DNA of 64,000 bases, taken from NCBI RefSeq assembly GCF_013620825.1, contig NZ_NJIC01000047.1, positions 61,244-125,243 on the forward strand. The letters are read 5' to 3'. The notes under the pieces were generated by a model. That model saw nothing but the letters and a program-made list of their open reading frames with translations, did not search any database and was not told where the DNA came from. Both the position numbers and the translations under genes were made by a program. The DNA comes from Rhodanobacter sp. PCA2 (GTDB lineage Bacteria > Pseudomonadota > Gammaproteobacteria > Xanthomonadales > Rhodanobacteraceae). Below, piece by piece: positions 48,293-58,638 of this stretch (the first letter of the stretch is position 1; every line of letters begins with the position of its first letter).

Positions 48293-49246
48293 ATGCGCGA
48301 GCTGTATCCCGAGATCGAACCCTTCCGCACCCGCCGCCTCGCCGTCGATGCGCGGCACAGCCTGCACGTGGAGGAATGCGGCACGCCCGGCGCACTGCCG
48401 GTGCTGTTCCTGCACGGCGGCCCCGGCGCGGGCATCGCGCCCTACCATCGCCGCTTCTTCGATCCCGCGCGCTGGCATGTGGTGCTGTTCGACCAGCGCG
48501 GCGCGGGGCAATCGACGCCGTTCGCCGACCTCGTCGACAACACCACCGCACACCTGGTGGCCGACATCGAGGCGCTGCGCGAGGAACTCGGCATCGAGCG
48601 CTGGGTGGTGTTCGGCGGCTCGTGGGGCTCCACGCTGGCGCTGGCCTACGCCGAGGCGCATCCCGAGCGCGTGCTGGGCCTGGTGCTGCGCGGCATCTTC
48701 CTCGCCCGCGACGAGGAGCTGCGCTGGTTCAACGAGGTGGACGGCGGCGCGCGCTACATCTTCCCCGAACGCTGGGCGCGCTTCCGCGATTTCATTCCCG
48801 AGGTCGAGCGCGGCAACATGATCGAGGCGTACTGGCGCCGCCTCGACAGCAGCGACGAAACCCTGCGCCTCGCCGCCGCGCAGGCCTGGAGCGCCTACGA
48901 GGGCGGCAGCACCACGCTGCTGCACGATCCGGACGCCGACGGCGATTTCACGGAGCCGCACAAGGCGGTGAGCCTTGCACGACTGGAGGCGCACTACTTC
49001 CGCCACGGCATGTTCCTCGAACCGGACCAGCTGCTGCGCGACGTGGCGAAGCTGCGGCGCATTCCCGCCACCATCGTGCATGGCCGCTACGACATCATCT
49101 GCCCGGTGAAGACCGCCATCGACCTGCACACGGCGTGGCCGGAGGTGGAACTGCGCATCGTGCTGGCCGGCCACAGTGCGGCCGACCCGGCCATCGTCGA
49201 TGCGCTGGTGCAGGCCACCGACAAGCTGGCGGATCGCTACGGCTGA
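48293..49246 (+). CDS. pip: Proline iminopeptidase
   Basis: 317 residues. HGGPGAG (41-47) oxyanion motif, FDQRGAGQSTP, nucleophile elbow GGSWGS (S110), VHGRYDIICP (Asp) and LAGHSAADP (His) are the S33 family catalytic set. It releases N-terminal proline from peptides in the cytoplasm. The tail overlaps the antisense DUF2894 gene by 10 bases. Confidence 0.92.
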   Translation: MRELYPEIEPFRTRRLAVDARHSLHVEECGTPGALPVLFLHGGPGAGIAPYHRRFFDPARWHVVLFDQRGAGQSTPFADLVDNTTAHLVADIEALREELGIERWVVFGGSWGSTLALAYAEAHPERVLGLVLRGIFLARDEELRWFNEVDGGARYIFPERWARFRDFIPEVERGNMIEAYWRRLDSSDETLRLAAAQAWSAYEGGSTTLLHDPDADGDFTEPHKAVSLARLEAHYFRHGMFLEPDQLLRDVAKLRRIPATIVHGRYDIICPVKTAIDLHTAWPEVELRIVLAGHSAADPAIVDALVQATDKLADRYG

Positions 49247-49902
49247 GCGGGCGGCGTAGTCGCCGGCTTCTTCCGCCGACTGCCGCCCGCGCGCGCCGGC
49301 TTGCGGGCCATCGCAGCGCCATCGGCATCGCCGCTGGCGACGACCTTGCCGGCGGCGTGCTCCATCCACGTCAGCACGTCGGCATACGCGACGAAGTGCT
49401 GCAGGTATTCCGGCGAGACATCGCGCATCAGCGTCATGGCGCGGTAGGCGAGCACGCGGGAATGCAACGGGCCGGCATCCTCGGGCAGCGAATCCAGGCA
49501 CTGCCGCAGCAGGCTGTCGATGCGGATGCGGCTCCACAGTTGCTGGAACTCGTCCAGCGCCGGCATGGGCGCGATGTCGGCGACGATGGTTTCGGCACGC
49601 GCGTGCACCATCGACACGGCTTGCGGCACGCCATCCAGCCGCGGGGCGTTGGCGAATTGCGCCAGCAGTTGCTGCATCGGGCTTTCGTCGACGTGGCGCG
49701 GCAGCGTGGCTTCAGACTGATCGGCGAGCAACCCGGCGTAGGCATCGGCCAGTTCCTGCAGGCGCGCATCCAGTTGCTTGCGCACCAGTCCGTCATGGCG
49801 CAGTGCGCGCCGCGCCATCGCGTCCATCAACACGAAGCGCAACGGATCGATGTGGTCGGCGCCCTGCTCGCGCCAGGCCGCCAGTCGCGCGTGGACGTCC
49901 AT
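49237..49902 (-). CDS. DUF2894 domain protein, last gene of stator-like operon
   Basis: 221 residues. The N-terminal MDVHARLAAWREQGADHIDPLRFVLMDAMARRA (region 1-33) is typical of DUF2894. The rest is helical, ending in a Lys/Arg/Pro-rich tail (SRRKKPATTPPAQP). It has no membrane segment and no known function. It starts one base after the stop of the OmpA-like gene and is always seen as a companion of DUF3348-DUF802-OmpA in my knowledge of these clusters. Confidence 0.8.
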   Translation of the reverse strand: MDVHARLAAWREQGADHIDPLRFVLMDAMARRALRHDGLVRKQLDARLQELADAYAGLLADQSEATLPRHVDESPMQQLLAQFANAPRLDGVPQAVSMVHARAETIVADIAPMPALDEFQQLWSRIRIDSLLRQCLDSLPEDAGPLHSRVLAYRAMTLMRDVSPEYLQHFVAYADVLTWMEHAAGKVVASGDADGAAMARKPARAGGSRRKKPATTPPAQP

Positions 49903-49903
49903 C

Positions 49904-50545
49904 TCAGTGCGCACCGGTCTTGCTGCGCGGGATCGGCGCGATTTCCACGCGGCGGTTCTTCGCACGGCCGGCGGCGCTGTCGTTGGAACTGACCGGCTGC
50001 TCGGCGCCGAACGCGGCGGCGAACACCGACGGGGCCGGCACGCCATCGGCGATCAGCGCGCGCGTCACGGTGAGCGCGCGCGCGGCGGACAGCTCCAGGT
50101 TGTCGGCGAAGCGCGCGTTGGCCACGCGCACCGGCTGGTTGTCGGTGAAGCCACTGACCATCAGGATCTCGTCGCGCGCCGAAAGATATCCGCGCAAGGG
50201 CGCGGCGAGGCTTTGCAGCAGGTCGCGGCCTTCCGGCTGCAACTGGTCGGAATTGAGCGCGAACAGCACGCTGCCGCTGATGCCGATGCGTCCATCGACC
50301 AGGGTCACGCGCCCGGCGGCCAAGGGCGCGGCCAGCGCCTGCTCCAGCGTCTTGAGGCGGGCGGCATCGGCCTGGCGCTGCTTCACTTCCTGGTCCAGCC
50401 GGTTGTGCAGCAACAGCTGGATGCCGATGACGCTGGCCAGGATCAGCACGAAGGCGCCCAGCAACACCGACATCAGGTCGCCGAACGCGGCCCAGGTGGT
50501 GGCGCCGGATTCGGCGCCGGGCTCGAACTCGATCTCGTCGCTCAT
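49904..50545 (-). CDS. MotB/OmpA-like protein with membrane Asp, stator-like subunit B
   Basis: 213 residues. A short cytoplasmic N-terminus leads into one membrane helix, TTWAAFGDLMSVLLGAFVLIL (16-36), with a single acidic residue, D23, placed like the proton-binding Asp of MotB (FVDLMT pattern). A periplasmic linker is followed by an OmpA/MotB peptidoglycan-binding domain with SGFTDNQPV (Asp) and NLELSAARALTV (Arg). Its ATG overlaps the DUF802 stop by four bases. The sequence suggests a peptidoglycan-anchored partner of the upstream membrane protein. Confidence 0.85.
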   Translation of the reverse strand: MSDEIEFEPGAESGATTWAAFGDLMSVLLGAFVLILASVIGIQLLLHNRLDQEVKQRQADAARLKTLEQALAAPLAAGRVTLVDGRIGISGSVLFALNSDQLQPEGRDLLQSLAAPLRGYLSARDEILMVSGFTDNQPVRVANARFADNLELSAARALTVTRALIADGVPAPSVFAAAFGAEQPVSSNDSAAGRAKNRRVEIAPIPRSKTGAH

Positions 50546-52704
50546 GCGCCGGCGGGCTCGGCGTCGTTGCGCGCGCCGGCGAGCTGCTGCAGCTCGCCGA
50601 TGATCTGCTTCTGCGAGAGCATGCTCAGCTCGATCACCTCGCGCGCCTGCGCCACGTAGTAGGCGAGCTGCTCGTCGCTGCGCGCCAGCGACTTGTCCAG
50701 CGCCGCCTCGATGCCTTGCAGGCGCTCGTTCAATGCCGCGGTGGACTGGCCGAACGACTGCACCGCGCCGCCGAACGCCTCGCCGAGGCTGGCCACTTCC
50801 ACTGCGCTGCCGGTGACGTGGGCCGCGGCCGCGTCGAGCCGGCCGGCTTCGCTTTCCACCTGCGCGCTGAAGCGGCTACCGACGCGCTCCAGCAGATCGG
50901 CCGAGGTGGCGACCAGCGCGTCGATGGCGCCGCGCTGTTCGGTGGAGGCGTGATTGACCGCGTCGAGCAGGGTCTGCAGGGTTTCCAGCAGGCGGCCGCG
51001 TTCCTCCAGCATGGCGGTGTCGCGCACCATGCTGTCGGACAGCTTCTGCCGCAATTCGGCCACCACTTCGGCCGCGGCGCGCGGCGCCTCGGAGGCGGTG
51101 GCGACCAGCCGCGAAATCTCGGCCAGGGTGTCGCGTGCCTGCGCCTGCGCCTGTTCGCCCATCGCCTGCGCGGTCTTCTCCAGCGTGGCGCAAACCTGCT
51201 GCTGGTGCGCGGCCACCTGTTCGCTGCCCTGCTCCCAGCGCTGGCCGAACTCGCCGGTCAACGCGGCGAAGGCATCGCGCCATTCGGCAAGGCGCTCAGC
51301 ATCGCGTGCTTCCAGCGCAGCCTGCAATTCGCCGTGCGAACGTTGCAGCGACTGGATCATCGCGTCGCTGCGCCCGGCGAAGGCCGACTGCAGATCGCCG
51401 TGCGATTGCTGCAGGCTGTCGATCAAGGCACGGGAGCGCTGGTCGAAACCGGCCGAGGCTGACGCCCACGCTTCTTCGTTGCGCCGCGCCAGCGCATCGT
51501 GCGCCTCGTGCTGGCGCGCGAGCGCGCCGTTCCACGCTTCGGCCGTGCGGGCCGTGTTGTCTTCCAGCCGCGCTGCCACGCCGTCCACCAGCGCGGTCGA
51601 GCGCTGCTCGAAGGTGGCGGCGAACTGCTGCAAGGCCTGCCGCAGATCGTCGGAGAGCGCCGCATTGCCGCGCTGCTGCTCGGCGACGGCGGCGCTCCAG
51701 CTTTCGCGGGCCGCACCAGCCGCGCCTTGCACGGTGCTGTCGAGGCCGTCGAGCTGCTTGCGCACGGCTTGTTCGATGGTGGCATGCAGACGATCGGACT
51801 GCGTGGCCAGGCCAGCCATGGTGCTGTCCACCACCGGCTGCAACGCGGCGCCGACGGCGTTGGCTTGCCGGGCGATGCCGTCGTGCAAGGCCTGCTGCAG
51901 CGTGGAAGCCAGTTGCGTGTACGCCGCTTCGGTGCGCTGGTGGAAGGCCTGCTGGCCTGCCTGCAGGCGTTCGCCCGCGGCCTGCTGCTGGCGTTCCAGC
52001 GTGTCGGCCAGCGTCTGCAGGCGATCCACCAGCACCGGCATCAGCGCGTTCTGTTCCTGCAGCAGGCGGAAGGTCTCGCGGCGCTGCGTCGATGGCGAAC
52101 GATGAGCGAGGTGCGCGGCGATGCCGGCATCCAGTTGCTGCACGGCCAACGCGCGTTCGCGCCGCAGCAGCGCCGACAACAGGCCCAGCGCCGCCGAGGT
52201 CGCCACGCCGGCAATCGACGTGCCGAAGGCGAAGCCCAGGCCCTTCACCGGCGCGGCCAGCGAGCTGCGGATGGCGTCGAGATCGGTGGCGCTTTCCAGC
52301 GCGAGTCCGGTGCCGCGCAAGGTGGCCATCATGCCCAGCAGGGTGCCGAGCATGCCCAGCAGCACCAGCAGGCCCACGAGGTAGGGCGTCAACGCCGGCG
52401 CCGGCAGGCCCACGCGTTCGCCTTCGACGCGCAGCCGCACGCTGTTGCGCAGGCCGGGCTGCAATTGCGAGAGCCAGCCGCCGAGGTTGCCGGCCGCGTC
52501 GCCGATGGACGGCAGCGCGCGCAGCAGCGTGGCGGTGGCCTGGCGGTAACGCAGCAGTTCGAACGTGCCGGCGAGATAGCAGGCGGCGATCAAGGCGGCG
52601 ACGGCGGCGGCCAGCGTGTGGTTGCCGAGGTAGCCGATGCCGATCCAGCACACGACCAGCAGGCCGGCAAGGAACACGACGGGGACGAGGAAATTTCTGT
52701 GCAT
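50542..52704 (-). CDS. DUF802 protein: MotA/ExbB-like membrane part plus long coiled-coil tail
   Basis: 720 residues. Four membrane helices are predicted by eye (about 6-26, 30-50, 106-128, 152-181). Helix 3, YLVGLLVLLGMLGTLLGMM, and helix 4, VKGLGFAFGTSIAGVATSAALGLL, resemble the pore helices of MotA/TolQ/ExbB. Residues 190-700 are an almost continuous Ala/Gln/Glu/Arg-rich heptad-like helix, including a short internal repeat (LQQSHGDLQ and LQRSHGELQ, about 423-465). Start at 52704, two bases after the DUF3348 stop. Function is undescribed; a stator-like role is inference. Confidence 0.82.
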   Translation of the reverse strand: MHRNFLVPVVFLAGLLVVCWIGIGYLGNHTLAAAVAALIAACYLAGTFELLRYRQATATLLRALPSIGDAAGNLGGWLSQLQPGLRNSVRLRVEGERVGLPAPALTPYLVGLLVLLGMLGTLLGMMATLRGTGLALESATDLDAIRSSLAAPVKGLGFAFGTSIAGVATSAALGLLSALLRRERALAVQQLDAGIAAHLAHRSPSTQRRETFRLLQEQNALMPVLVDRLQTLADTLERQQQAAGERLQAGQQAFHQRTEAAYTQLASTLQQALHDGIARQANAVGAALQPVVDSTMAGLATQSDRLHATIEQAVRKQLDGLDSTVQGAAGAARESWSAAVAEQQRGNAALSDDLRQALQQFAATFEQRSTALVDGVAARLEDNTARTAEAWNGALARQHEAHDALARRNEEAWASASAGFDQRSRALIDSLQQSHGDLQSAFAGRSDAMIQSLQRSHGELQAALEARDAERLAEWRDAFAALTGEFGQRWEQGSEQVAAHQQQVCATLEKTAQAMGEQAQAQARDTLAEISRLVATASEAPRAAAEVVAELRQKLSDSMVRDTAMLEERGRLLETLQTLLDAVNHASTEQRGAIDALVATSADLLERVGSRFSAQVESEAGRLDAAAAHVTGSAVEVASLGEAFGGAVQSFGQSTAALNERLQGIEAALDKSLARSDEQLAYYVAQAREVIELSMLSQKQIIGELQQLAGARNDAEPAGA

Positions 52705-52706
52705 GG

Positions 52707-53414
52707 TTACCGGGTGCGCAGCGCTGCAAGCAGGCCGTCGATGGGGTGAAAGCGAACCTCCAGCTCGGCCAGCAGCGCCATGCGCATGTCCTGGCGGAAC
52801 CGCGCCAGCCAGGGGCCGGCGGCGGAGGCATCGTCCGGCGCATCGGCGCCGGTGGCATGGGGAGCGCCCGCTGTGCGCAGGCGCCTGTAGTGCTGACCAA
52901 GCAGAGCGGGCACGCGCGCCAGCAGCATCTGCTCGCGCGGGCTGAGCACGACCTCCATCACCGCGTCCACCTCGGCCAGCCGCGCCTTGGCGGGCGACTG
53001 GCGCGCGAGCGCGTCGCGCAGGCGGCCGCGCAGCTGGCCCGTGGCCGCCTGCATCGCGCGCTGCGCGGCCATGCAGTGCTGGCGATAGGGCTGGTAGTCG
53101 TCGTCGATGGTCGGGGCATCCTTGCGTGCGGGCGGGGCCGGATCGATGTCGGCATCGATGGATTGCCGCAGCACGCCGCGCAGGCGCGCGCATTCGGCGG
53201 CGTGGCCGTCCTCGCCCTCCGCATCGTCCTCGACGCCGGCAACACCGCCATCCAGCGCGCGCGACAGCACAAGGGCGCGGTTCCAGTCGAACCAGTCGGC
53301 CAGGCGCTCGGTGAGCACCGGCGGCGTGCGCGGCAGGTCGGCATCGCCGAAGCGTGCCAGCAGGCGGATGAACGCCGGGCCTGGTGCGGGCGTGCGGGGG
53401 GAAGCTTTCGCCAT
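52707..53414 (-). CDS. DUF3348 domain protein, first gene of stator-like operon
   Basis: 235 residues from ATG 53414; a start at 53471 is possible. FIRLLARFGDADLPRTPPVLTERLADWFDWNRALVLSRAL (region 16-55) is the DUF3348 hallmark. The middle is acidic and the C-terminus is helical with FRQDMRMALLAELEVRFHPIDGLLAALR. No membrane segment is present, so it is probably cytoplasmic. It is translated just ahead of DUF802. Confidence 0.8.
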   Translation of the reverse strand: MAKASPRTPAPGPAFIRLLARFGDADLPRTPPVLTERLADWFDWNRALVLSRALDGGVAGVEDDAEGEDGHAAECARLRGVLRQSIDADIDPAPPARKDAPTIDDDYQPYRQHCMAAQRAMQAATGQLRGRLRDALARQSPAKARLAEVDAVMEVVLSPREQMLLARVPALLGQHYRRLRTAGAPHATGADAPDDASAAGPWLARFRQDMRMALLAELEVRFHPIDGLLAALRTR

Positions 53415-53633: not shown

Positions 53634-55508
53634 ATGCGCCTGCTTCCCTTCCTCGCCCTCGGCGCCCTGATGCTGCCGCTGGCCGCCCGCGCCAACGACC
53701 CGAACTCGTATGCCCAGCCCGACCAGGTGGTGGTGACGCATCTCAATTTGGACCTGAAGATCGACTTCCCGCACAAGCAGCTGGACGGCGTGGCCACGCT
53801 GAAGCTGGACTGGAAGAACCCGAAGGCGTCGGCGCTGGTGCTGGACACGCGCGACCTGAAGATCGGCTCCATCGCTGCGGTGGAGCCGAATGGCAAGACC
53901 AGCGCGCTGAAGTACGCGCTGGCGCCCGCCGACAAGGAGCTGGGCAGCAAGCTCACCATCGAGACGCCGAAGCATCCGGCGCAGGTGCGCATCACCTATG
54001 CCACCTCGCCCGATGCCTCCGGCCTGCAGTGGCTGCCGCCCGCGCAGACGGCAGACAAGAAGGCGCCCTTCATGTTCTCGCAGTCCGAGTCCATCCACGC
54101 GCGCTCCTGGGTGCCGCTGCAGGATTCGCCGGCGATCCGCTTCACCTACGACGCCCACGTCAGCGCGCCGAAGGACATCCGCGTGGTGATGAGCGCGCTC
54201 AACGACGCGAAGCATCCGCTGGACGGCAGCTTCCGCTTCGACCAGCCGCACCCGATTCCCTCCTACCTGCTGGCGATCGCCGCCGGCGACATCGCGGTGA
54301 AGGAAACCGGGCCGCGCTCGGCGGTGTATGCGGAACCCTCCGTCGTCGACGGCGCCGCGCGCGAGTTCGCCGACACCGAGAAGATGATCGACACCGCGGA
54401 ATCGCTGTACGGCCCGTACCGCTGGGGCCGCTACGACCTGCTGGTGCTGCCGCCCTCCTTCCCTTACGGCGGCATGGAAAATCCGAACATGACCTTCGCC
54501 ACGCCGACGATCATCGTGGGCGACAAGAGCCTGGTCAGCGTGATCTCGCACGAGCTGGCGCATTCCTGGTCCGGCAACCTGGTGACCAGCGCCTCGTGGC
54601 GCGACATCTGGCTCAACGAGGGCTTCACCACCTACGTGCAGGGCCGCATCACCGAGGCGCTGTACGGCAAGCGCCAGGCCGACGAAGAGGCGCTGCTGTC
54701 CGCGCGCGCACTGGAGAAATCCATCGGCCATATGCCGGCGAACTCGCAGAAGCTGGCGCCCGATCCGCGCGGCGTGGGTGCCGACGATGCGCTGTCCGAC
54801 GTGGCCTACGACAAGGGCTCCTGGTTCCTGCGCACGCTGGAGCAGAAGTTCGGCCGCGAGCATTTCGACGCCTACCTCAAGGGCTATTTCGACCACTTCG
54901 CCTGGCACAGCATCACCACCGAGCAGATGCTGGCGTGGCTGAAGCCGAACCTGATCGAGAAGTACCCCGGCAAGATGAGCTGGGACGAAGTGCAGCAGTG
55001 GGTCTACGGCACCGGCATCCCCAAGGATGCGCCGCTGCCGGATTCGCCGCGCTTCGACATGATCGACAAGGAGCGCGGCGCCTTCCTCGCCGGCACCCTG
55101 CCCGCCGCCAAGCTGGACGCGAAGGACTGGAACACCCAGGAGTGGATGTACTTCCTCGACCGCCTGCCCGACGCGCCCAGGCTGGAGCAGATGCAGCAGC
55201 TCGACGCCGCCTGGCACCTCACCGGCACGCACAACGCCGAGATCGGCATGCGCTGGTACGTGCACGCGATCGCCGCCGGCGACAAGGCCGCATGGCCGGC
55301 CGCCGCCGAGCACATGACGCGCATCGGCCGGCTCTACCTCACCATGCCGGTGTACGGCGCCTTCGCGAAGACGCCCGACGGCCTCGCCTACGCACAGCAG
55401 GTCTACGCCAAGGCGAAGGACGGCTACCACCCGCTGACCCAGCAGGCGGTGGAGCGGCTGTTCGCCAAGGCCGGGGCGAAGGCGAAGCAGCCCGCCGCGA
55501 AAAACTGA
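53634..55508 (+). CDS. M1 family metallopeptidase, exported
   Basis: 624 residues. ATG 53634 gives a signal peptide (MRLLPFLALGALMLPLAARA). The M1 site is complete: exopeptidase GGMEN (279-283), zinc HELAH (306-310) and the third ligand in WLNEGFTTYVQG (E329). The C-terminal domain (about 470-610) is the helical leukotriene-A4-hydrolase type. It is a periplasmic aminopeptidase acting on peptides. It is divergent from the stator-like operon. Confidence 0.93.
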   Translation: MRLLPFLALGALMLPLAARANDPNSYAQPDQVVVTHLNLDLKIDFPHKQLDGVATLKLDWKNPKASALVLDTRDLKIGSIAAVEPNGKTSALKYALAPADKELGSKLTIETPKHPAQVRITYATSPDASGLQWLPPAQTADKKAPFMFSQSESIHARSWVPLQDSPAIRFTYDAHVSAPKDIRVVMSALNDAKHPLDGSFRFDQPHPIPSYLLAIAAGDIAVKETGPRSAVYAEPSVVDGAAREFADTEKMIDTAESLYGPYRWGRYDLLVLPPSFPYGGMENPNMTFATPTIIVGDKSLVSVISHELAHSWSGNLVTSASWRDIWLNEGFTTYVQGRITEALYGKRQADEEALLSARALEKSIGHMPANSQKLAPDPRGVGADDALSDVAYDKGSWFLRTLEQKFGREHFDAYLKGYFDHFAWHSITTEQMLAWLKPNLIEKYPGKMSWDEVQQWVYGTGIPKDAPLPDSPRFDMIDKERGAFLAGTLPAAKLDAKDWNTQEWMYFLDRLPDAPRLEQMQQLDAAWHLTGTHNAEIGMRWYVHAIAAGDKAAWPAAAEHMTRIGRLYLTMPVYGAFAKTPDGLAYAQQVYAKAKDGYHPLTQQAVERLFAKAGAKAKQPAAKN

Positions 55509-57474: not shown

Positions 57475-58638
57475 ATGCTGAACACTCTGGCGGTCGCGAA
57501 CTATCGTTCGATCCGCTCGCTGGTCGTGCCGCTGGGGCGGCTCAACCTGGTTACCGGCGCGAACGGCAGCGGGAAGTCCAACCTCTACCGCGCGCTGCGG
57601 CTGCTGGCGGAATCGGCCGGCGGCGGCGTGGTGGGCGCGCTGGCCCGCGAAGGCGGCCTGTCTTCCGTGCTGTGGGCCGGCCCCGAACGCATCTCCGGGC
57701 GCATGCGCCGGGGCGAGGTGCCGGTCCAGGGCGTGGTCCGGCAACAGTCCGTGGGCCTGAAGCTGGGTTTCGCCGGCGAGGACTTCGGCTACGCCATGGA
57801 CCTCGGCTTTCCGCCGCCACCGAACCGGCCCGCGTTCGCGCTGGACCCGGAGTTCAAGCGCGAGGCGATCTGGAGCGGCCCGTTCCTGCGCGCGTCCAAC
57901 ACGCTGGTCGACCGCCGCGGTCCGCTGGCGCGCGTGCGCGATGCGCGCGCCTGGCGGGTGGTGTCCGAGCATCTCGATGCGTTCGAGAGCCTGCTCACCC
58001 AGGTGGCCGATCCGGAGCGTGCGCCGGAGGCGCTGCGCGTGCGCGAGTCGATCCGGGCATGGCGCTTCTACGACCATTTCCGCTCGGATCGCGAGGCGCC
58101 GGCGCGGCAAGCCCACTGGGGCACGCGCACGGTGGTGCTGGGCCACGATGGCGCCGACCTCGCCGCGGCCTGGGAAACGATACGCGAGATCGGCGACCCG
58201 GCGGCGCTGGACGCCGCGGTGGAGGACGCGTTTCCCGGGGCGAAGGTGGACATCGCCGCGTACGACGGCCGCTTCACCCTGCTGTTTTCGCAGCACGGCC
58301 TGCTGCGGCCGCTTTCCGCGATGGAGCTGTCCGATGGAACGCTGCGCTACCTGCTGTGGATCGCCGCGCTGCACACGCCACGGCCGCCGCCGCTGATGGT
58401 GTTGAACGAGCCCGAGACCAGCCTGCATCCCGACCTGCTGCCCGCGCTGGCACGCCTCATCATCCACGCCGCCACGCGCAGCCAGGTGTGGGTGGTGTCG
58501 CATGCGTCGCGCCTGATCGCCGCGCTGGAGGCGGCTCCCGACTGCCGCACGATCACGCTGGAGAAGGACTTCAGCGAGACCCGCGTGGCGGGGCAGCGCG
58601 AGCTGGACGAACCGGCCTGGTATTGGCCGGAACGCTAG
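57475..58638 (+). CDS. AAA family ATPase, RecF/SMC-like (AAA_21)
   Basis: 387 residues. Walker A GANGSGKSN (28-36) follows NYRSIRSLVVPLGRLNLVTG, the RecF-like start. The signature ELSDGTLRYLLW and Walker B LMVLNEPETSLHPDLL (N in place of the usual D before Glu) come late, then the H-loop WVVSHASRLIAAL. No coiled coil long enough for an SMC and no nuclease or TOPRIM domain. These single ATPases are common in proteobacteria and their role is unknown. No toxin, nuclease or reverse transcriptase gene accompanies it. Confidence 0.8.
   Translation: MLNTLAVANYRSIRSLVVPLGRLNLVTGANGSGKSNLYRALRLLAESAGGGVVGALAREGGLSSVLWAGPERISGRMRRGEVPVQGVVRQQSVGLKLGFAGEDFGYAMDLGFPPPPNRPAFALDPEFKREAIWSGPFLRASNTLVDRRGPLARVRDARAWRVVSEHLDAFESLLTQVADPERAPEALRVRESIRAWRFYDHFRSDREAPARQAHWGTRTVVLGHDGADLAAAWETIREIGDPAALDAAVEDAFPGAKVDIAAYDGRFTLLFSQHGLLRPLSAMELSDGTLRYLLWIAALHTPRPPPLMVLNEPETSLHPDLLPALARLIIHAATRSQVWVVSHASRLIAALEAAPDCRTITLEKDFSETRVAGQRELDEPAWYWPER

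Follow-up and report, generated by a model that had tools for sequence, protein, structure and literature searches.

Zorya systems and related stators

The MotAB, ExbBD and TolQR stators share with ZorAB, the membrane pair of the Zorya defence systems, both the arrangement of their helices and an Asp in the B subunit, and the OmpA domain occurs as it does in MotB. Zorya systems of types I and II form 5:2 complexes in which the Asp of ZorB packs against a ring of ZorA Ser/Thr residues, and both require the ZorA tail, peptidoglycan binding and separate effectors (PMC11890865).

Type III Zorya was defined in 2021 from 6,401 loci with DUF3348 (ZorF) and DUF2894 (ZorG) (PMC8565338). The representative was cloned from Stenotrophomonas nitritireducens DSM 12575 (NZ_LDJG01000021.1), with E. 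coli as the host of the expression plasmid. In this host, every one of the three systems examined in that study significantly lowered the plaquing of at least one phage (PMC8565338). The names of the two accessory proteins are reversed in PADLOC-DB 2.0.0, in which DUF3348 is ZorG and DUF2894 is ZorF, and the text of PMC8565338 has 'zorBC' where zorAB was apparently intended. Both proteins are referred to here by their family.

Identification of a type III Zorya operon in Rhodanobacter

The window, i.e., the whole stretch of 64,000 nucleotides of Rhodanobacter sp. PCA2 that was analysed, carries at 49237-53414 on the minus strand four tightly packed genes in the order DUF3348-ZorA-ZorB-DUF2894 (Table 1). 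DUF3348 and zorA are separated by a 2-nt gap, zorA and zorB share a 4-nt ATGA overlap, and a 1-nt gap lies between zorB and DUF2894. The coordinates and gene order given by the earlier note, which had described a minus-strand run of four genes with gaps or overlaps of a few bases, are thus exact (junctions of +2, -4 and +1 nt).

Table 1. Features of the type III Zorya operon of Rhodanobacter sp. PCA2 and of its flanks (positions in the window)
Feature	Position	Strand	Remarks
DUF3348 protein (ZorF in PMC8565338; ZorG3 in PADLOC-DB)	52707..53414	-	235 aa; PF11828 E 4.1e-75; PDLC00658 1.9e-80
ZorA (type III), 4 membrane helices and long cytoplasmic coiled tail	50542..52704	-	720 aa; PF05650/DUF802 E 3e-23; PDLC00650 E 0, 1056 bits
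ZorB (type III), 1 membrane helix and OmpA peptidoglycan domain	49904..50545	-	213 aa; PF00691 E 2.4e-17; PDLC00651 1.9e-106
DUF2894 protein (ZorG in PMC8565338; ZorF3 in PADLOC-DB)	49237..49902	-	221 aa; PF11445 E 2.6e-42; PDLC00652 1.7e-60
ZorA T121 codon, TM3 pore threonine	52342..52344	-	T in 81/81; aligned to GT of 8VVN ZorA
ZorA T162-S163 codons, TM4 pore ring	52216..52221	-	T and S in 81/81; aligned to TS of 8VVN ZorA
ZorA variable tail middle, residues 201-519, Trp-punctuated modules, DUF802 repeats	51148..52104	-	
ZorA conserved tail tip, residues 520-720	50545..51147	-	from identity profile; likely output or partner surface
ZorB D23 codon, predicted ion-carrying aspartate	50477..50479	-	D in 80/80 ZorB, window included
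Flanking alpha/beta hydrolase, serine aminopeptidase-like	48311..49246	+	convergent; 10-nt overlap with operon end; marks insertion site
Flanking M1 family aminopeptidase (translated from just past start codon)	53637..55508	+	divergent; PF01433 7.8e-43; marks insertion site

All four gene products are best matched by the PADLOC models for type III Zorya (E values 2e-60 to 0). The sequence features diagnostic of this type are present: the zorA-zorB pair is flanked by the DUF3348 and DUF2894 genes, ZorA combines a MotA/ExbB-like membrane core with a long cytoplasmic tail, and ZorB includes one membrane helix, a conserved Asp and an OmpA domain. The genome scan also returned the contig of the tested S. 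nitritireducens system (locus L036). In global alignments, the identity over aligned columns between the products of this contig and those of the window is 75.7% for DUF3348, 83.6% for ZorA, 90.0% for ZorB and 61.6% for DUF2894. Both operons encode four proteins of the same families in identical order, with 62-90% identity per protein, but they differ in their flanks and in the ZorA tail, which is 78 residues shorter in Rhodanobacter (720 versus 798 aa). The comparison set comprised 80 relatives, the best of 454 confirmed, in addition to the window. Both DUF3348 and DUF2894 are present, and the gene order DUF3348-ZorA-ZorB-DUF2894 is kept, in 79 of these 80; the remaining one (L076) is a contig which ends inside ZorA.

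Based on the PADLOC type III calls and on the close orthologue in the tested S. nitritireducens locus, the machine is of a known kind. The earlier description of it as uncharacterised and of unknown job finds no support, since type III Zorya was defined in 2021 and is protective against phages in E. coli (PMC8565338). The locus is a close relative of a published, experimentally tested system, and we assign a probability of roughly 0.8 to the operon being a type III Zorya anti-phage system. Activity against phages would be extended to the Rhodanobacter locus by homology with one published orthologue, plasmid-borne in E. coli.

The motor core

Hydropathy analysis of ZorA revealed four membrane stretches (about residues 5-23, 30-48, 109-127 and 162-180), and that of ZorB a single stretch (residues 24-42) with D23 at its edge; no membrane stretch was detected by hydropathy in the DUF3348 and DUF2894 proteins. 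The motifs FGDLMS and NLELSAARA are both present in ZorB. These results confirm the four membrane helices that had been read in the second protein, as well as the single helix, D23 (at the helix edge), FGDLMS and the OmpA domain with NLELSAARA in the third. The conservation of D23 among homologues, on which the earlier interpretation depended, is complete in the 80 ZorB sequences compared (79 relatives and the window), and ZorA residues T121, T162 and S163 are also invariant (Table 1).

A profile of the ZorA membrane core had a sole match in the PDB at an E value of 0.1 or less, the type I ZorA of Shewanella (PDB: 8VVN; E value 9e-5), and this match spans the GT and TS pore motifs. The ZorB profile matched 48 PDB chains, mostly OmpA-type domains, which are shared with MotB, and among them 8VVN_B (E value 3e-7 for the whole chain, span 9-206, with no single stretch under the limit). 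The Pfam model MotA_ExbB (PF01618) matched the window ZorA below its gathering cut-off (10.1 versus 22.9 bits; E value 0.71), as did the NCBIfam models ZorA_1 (23.5 of 190 bits) and ZorA_2 (27.9 of 100 bits), while PF01618 matched all ten sequences of a set designated A1 at an E value of 1 or less (best 0.015). Because the MotA_ExbB, ZorA_1 and ZorA_2 matches lie under the cut-off, the kinship to MotA is visible only via ZorA. The proposed resemblance of helices 3 and 4 to MotA/ExbB is thus upheld through the ZorA models and 8VVN, but the direct comparison with MotA_ExbB stays below the threshold. The locus is further set apart from MotAB, ExbBD and TolQR in that no flagellar or Tol/Ton partner is encoded among the ten other window proteins typed, which agrees with the earlier remark that no flagellar gene is nearby.

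The long cytoplasmic tail and the ion-site Asp are held in common with types I and II (Shewanella 8VVN and Sulfuricurvum 8VVI; PMC11890865), and the ZorA pore helices and ZorB of the type I pair 8VVN match those of the Rhodanobacter locus. However, Zorya I and II carry ZorC/ZorD or ZorE, and the Rhodanobacter operon has DUF3348 and DUF2894 instead; no ZorC, ZorD or ZorE was found among the four operon proteins or the ten other window proteins scanned. In addition, the tip of the Rhodanobacter ZorA tail is strongly matched by type III models alone. In toto, the homology and the invariance of D23 and of the pore Thr/Ser residues support the earlier suggestion of a peptidoglycan-anchored, ion-driven motor of the A5B2 type, akin to ZorAB and with DUF3348 and DUF2894 as partners.

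The ZorA tail

The tail of ZorA comprises about 520 residues and is strongly periodic in hydropathy, with a windowed power of 5.14 as compared with 2.17 (sd 0.34) in shuffled sequences, none of 500 of which was as high. The peak corresponds to 3.64 residues per turn (mean of 15 representatives; 3.63-3.66 when taken singly) and not to the 3.5 of a heptad. Because of this period, the tail is not a canonical heptad coil; of the helix of about 500 heptad-rich residues that had been proposed to follow the membrane part, the length and the strong periodicity are retained, but the heptad is not.

Conservation along ZorA, expressed as the identity to the window averaged over blocks of 40 residues, is 0.58-0.60 in the first 80 residues, 0.75-0.90 in residues 81-200, which include the third and fourth membrane helices, 0.23-0.58 in the middle (residues 241-520), and 0.69-0.81 in residues 521-720, i.e., close to that of TM3/TM4. 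Trp spacings of 62 (162 occurrences), 15 (139 occurrences) and 55 residues (80 occurrences) recur in the tail middle of the 81 proteins, and the total length of ZorA tracks the number of Trp residues (r = 0.98; 80 proteins). Among 13 of the proteins, the tail has been extended by repetition of units whose size differs with the lineage: 131 residues in two Achromobacter, 80 in one Burkholderia, 87 in Cupriavidus, 149 in Burkholderiaceae bacterium 16, 62 in Xanthomonas phaseoli, 29 in Lysobacter and 40 in Xanthomonas bonasiae.

Fifteen classes of tail length were obtained from the 76 of 81 proteins with both landmarks, the other five being dropped for the absence of one landmark. With the period of 3.64, the 14 length differences from the shortest class deviate from whole numbers of turns by a mean of 0.064 turns (0.25 expected; worst 0.27), and none of 20,000 random sets was as low, the classes being related by descent and not independent. 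When periods from 3.40 to 3.78 were scanned in steps of 0.02, the next best gave 0.174 turns. The fit is poorer between neighbouring classes (mean 0.094 turns, with one misfit at 0.40). The plain reading of these sequences is that the tail would form one continuous helical seam from the membrane to the tip, which has been lengthened mostly in phase, so as to constitute a shaft of variable length with a fixed end piece. This structural reading is no demonstration of rotation. The conserved tip (residues 520-720) is likely to be the output or partner surface.

The DUF3348 and DUF2894 partners and a proposed mechanism

The DUF3348 protein is predicted to be all-helical (AlphaFold2 pTM 0.71), as is the DUF2894 protein, which was poorly modelled (pTM 0.40, low). 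Neither has a clear PDB relative by sequence or by fold, and a re-check of DUF3348 yielded generic bundles only. Scans of the two proteins with the PADLOC, Pfam and NCBIfam models detected no nuclease, no helicase and no other family of enzymes, and the residues that are invariant among 41 relatives of each include no recognised catalytic motif.

The homology with types I and II suggests an inner-membrane motor of five ZorA and two ZorB, tethered to the peptidoglycan, in which ions may pass ZorB D23 and the ZorA Thr/Ser ring and thereby turn ZorA against the peptidoglycan-bound ZorB. Judging from their sequence, the five ZorA tails would be bundled into a coiled shaft, long, uninterrupted and almost straight, through which the motion would reach the conserved tip. 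There DUF3348 and DUF2894, in place of ZorC, ZorD or ZorE, may be held or released and, as adaptor or effector, might block either the phage as it enters or the cell that it has infected.

The discussion in PMC11890865 suggests a nuclease-recruiting mechanism for all Zorya subtypes, and types I and II have DNA-acting partners. Neither partner in type III resembles a nuclease by sequence; the two might recruit a host nuclease, gate an ion leak or act themselves. The passages on type III Zorya in PMC8565338, PMC11890865, PMC12584637, PMC11953036 and PMC13064858 yielded no account of its mechanism, which may be treated elsewhere. A further, less probable reading is a nuclease-free Zorya, in which the motor drives a register-locked modular shaft and the tip, together with DUF3348 and DUF2894, is the effector. 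On this view, defence would depend on mechanical work, on sequestration or on ion flux, and not on recruited DNA cutting.

The lack of any detected nuclease, helicase or other catalytic family in the two partners would also suit a gated ion leak, in which infection opens ZorAB and the cell depolarises, DUF3348 and DUF2894 acting merely as gates. This agrees with the proposal in PMC8565338 that ZorF and ZorG regulate ZorAB, and with an earlier one, reported in the same paper, of ZorAB as a proton channel in abortive infection. However, the presence of a conserved tip of about 200 residues far from the pore, and of tail insertions which nearly preserve the phase, suggests that the shaft carries an output, and types I and II depend on both the tail and separate effectors (PMC11890865). 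We therefore regard a mere leak as rather unlikely.

One report on expression of type III Zorya in a native host was found, and its outcome is ambiguous. When Burkholderia cenocepacia K56-2 was infected with phage Bcep176, significant changes within the Zorya III operon were confined to its first one or two genes, and in the available text of PMC12584637 Zorya III is not among the systems called transcriptionally active by the authors.

Distribution and mobility of the operon

The distribution was surveyed in one genome per species using DUF3348 as the marker, which ZorA adjoins in all 31 loci checked. DUF3348 was found in 80 of the 195 genomes of the window's family, with one copy per genome in every positive, in 143 of 296 genomes of a second family of the order, in 6 of 13 genomes of a further family (one as a 37-position fragment), and in 8 of 370 genomes drawn across the class, own genome included. 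Type III Zorya is common in the Xanthomonadales and Burkholderiales genera met here.

Within the genus of the window, the operon is present in 8 of the 12 genomes that are at least 90% complete. In six of these, that of the window among them, it occupies a single site, with an S33-type hydrolase gene on one side and an M1 aminopeptidase gene on the other; two have divergent copies elsewhere. The four genomes without the operon nevertheless contain both flanking genes, and the operon-less intervals hold other genes, several of them GGDEF/EAL-like as judged by eye. The interval between hydrolase and M1 aminopeptidase (loci L112-L115, L118, L119 and L121) is a variable site in the genus, often with GGDEF/EAL-like genes, and in L118, L119 and L121 the operon sits on the hydrolase side. 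Two genomes of the same genus (L123 and L124) carry a divergent type III operon at other sites (ZorA 57-59% identity).

In a quick tree of 80 rows, with SH-aLRT support only, the clade of the window groups with Stenotrophomonas (starred sets of 9 and 14 rows), apart from other Rhodanobacter. The split suggests, and would fit, a transfer across families, the direction of which is unsettled and of which the split alone is no proof. Clustering with blastn, in which distant homologous flanks count as different, resolved 76 left flanks into 29 clusters and 77 right flanks into 31, while flanks are common to members within the Xanthomonas, Achromobacter and Stenotrophomonas groups. Among 120 of the 179 heuristically called neighbouring ORFs at 30 loci, PADLOC matches at an E value of 1e-10 comprise 13 families with one member each; neighbours of the operon are rarely defence genes. 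No copies were found in collections of phages and of viral contigs at the search sensitivity applied.

Two neighbours may be mentioned individually. In one relative, a neighbouring ORF matches DpdJ (E value 0), an instance of a type III operon with a further defence gene close by. In the window, an AAA_21 (AbiEii-type) ATPase is encoded at 57475-58638 on the plus strand, about 4 kb from the operon; it has many PADLOC matches (best HEC-01A, E value 5e-46) and may represent either a second gene for defence or simply an ATPase of ordinary function.

The scattered presence, the many sites and the tree split, taken with the flanks shared within groups, the few defence neighbours and the lack of detected phage copies, indicate an operon that seems to be accessory, to move rarely and then to stay. 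Several of these observations would also be expected of a lineage-specific envelope or stress stator, i.e., a Tol/Exb-like housekeeping device that protects E. coli from phages as a side effect of the overproduction of the motor. The spread of the operon is narrow (8 of 370 genomes across the class but 41-48% of species in two families), all 80 positives of the window's family have a single copy, flanks are the same within the Xanthomonas and Achromobacter groups, and both the few defence genes among the 120 ORFs and the viral collections point the same way. The type III Zorya of R. solanacearum serves in PMC13064858 to illustrate defence systems that are highly conserved and of the core type, and the transcriptional response in B. 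cenocepacia is weak (PMC12584637). A housekeeping role is nonetheless improbable in our judgement: more than half of the species in these two families lack the operon, as do four sister genomes in which both flanking genes are present, its flanks fall into 29 and 31 clusters, the tree suggests transfer across families, and the tested orthologue protects against phages (PMC8565338). A variant of a flagellar or gliding stator, for which the MotB-like OmpA domain might speak, is scarcely credible, as the best matches are to type III ZorA and ZorB, MotA_ExbB is below the cut-off, and no motility gene is present among the ten other window proteins typed.

Implications for Zorya immunity

Zorya illustrates clearly how a rotary motor of the flagellar type can serve immunity. 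As the type III operon is without a recognisable nuclease, it is a natural and sharp test of nuclease recruitment versus another route. The new detail added here is a Trp-punctuated modular tail with a period of 3.64; it joins a constant membrane core to a conserved tip and changes in length by steps of nearly whole turns. Together, the conserved tip and the turn-wise variation in tail length provide concrete sites for cutting and testing.
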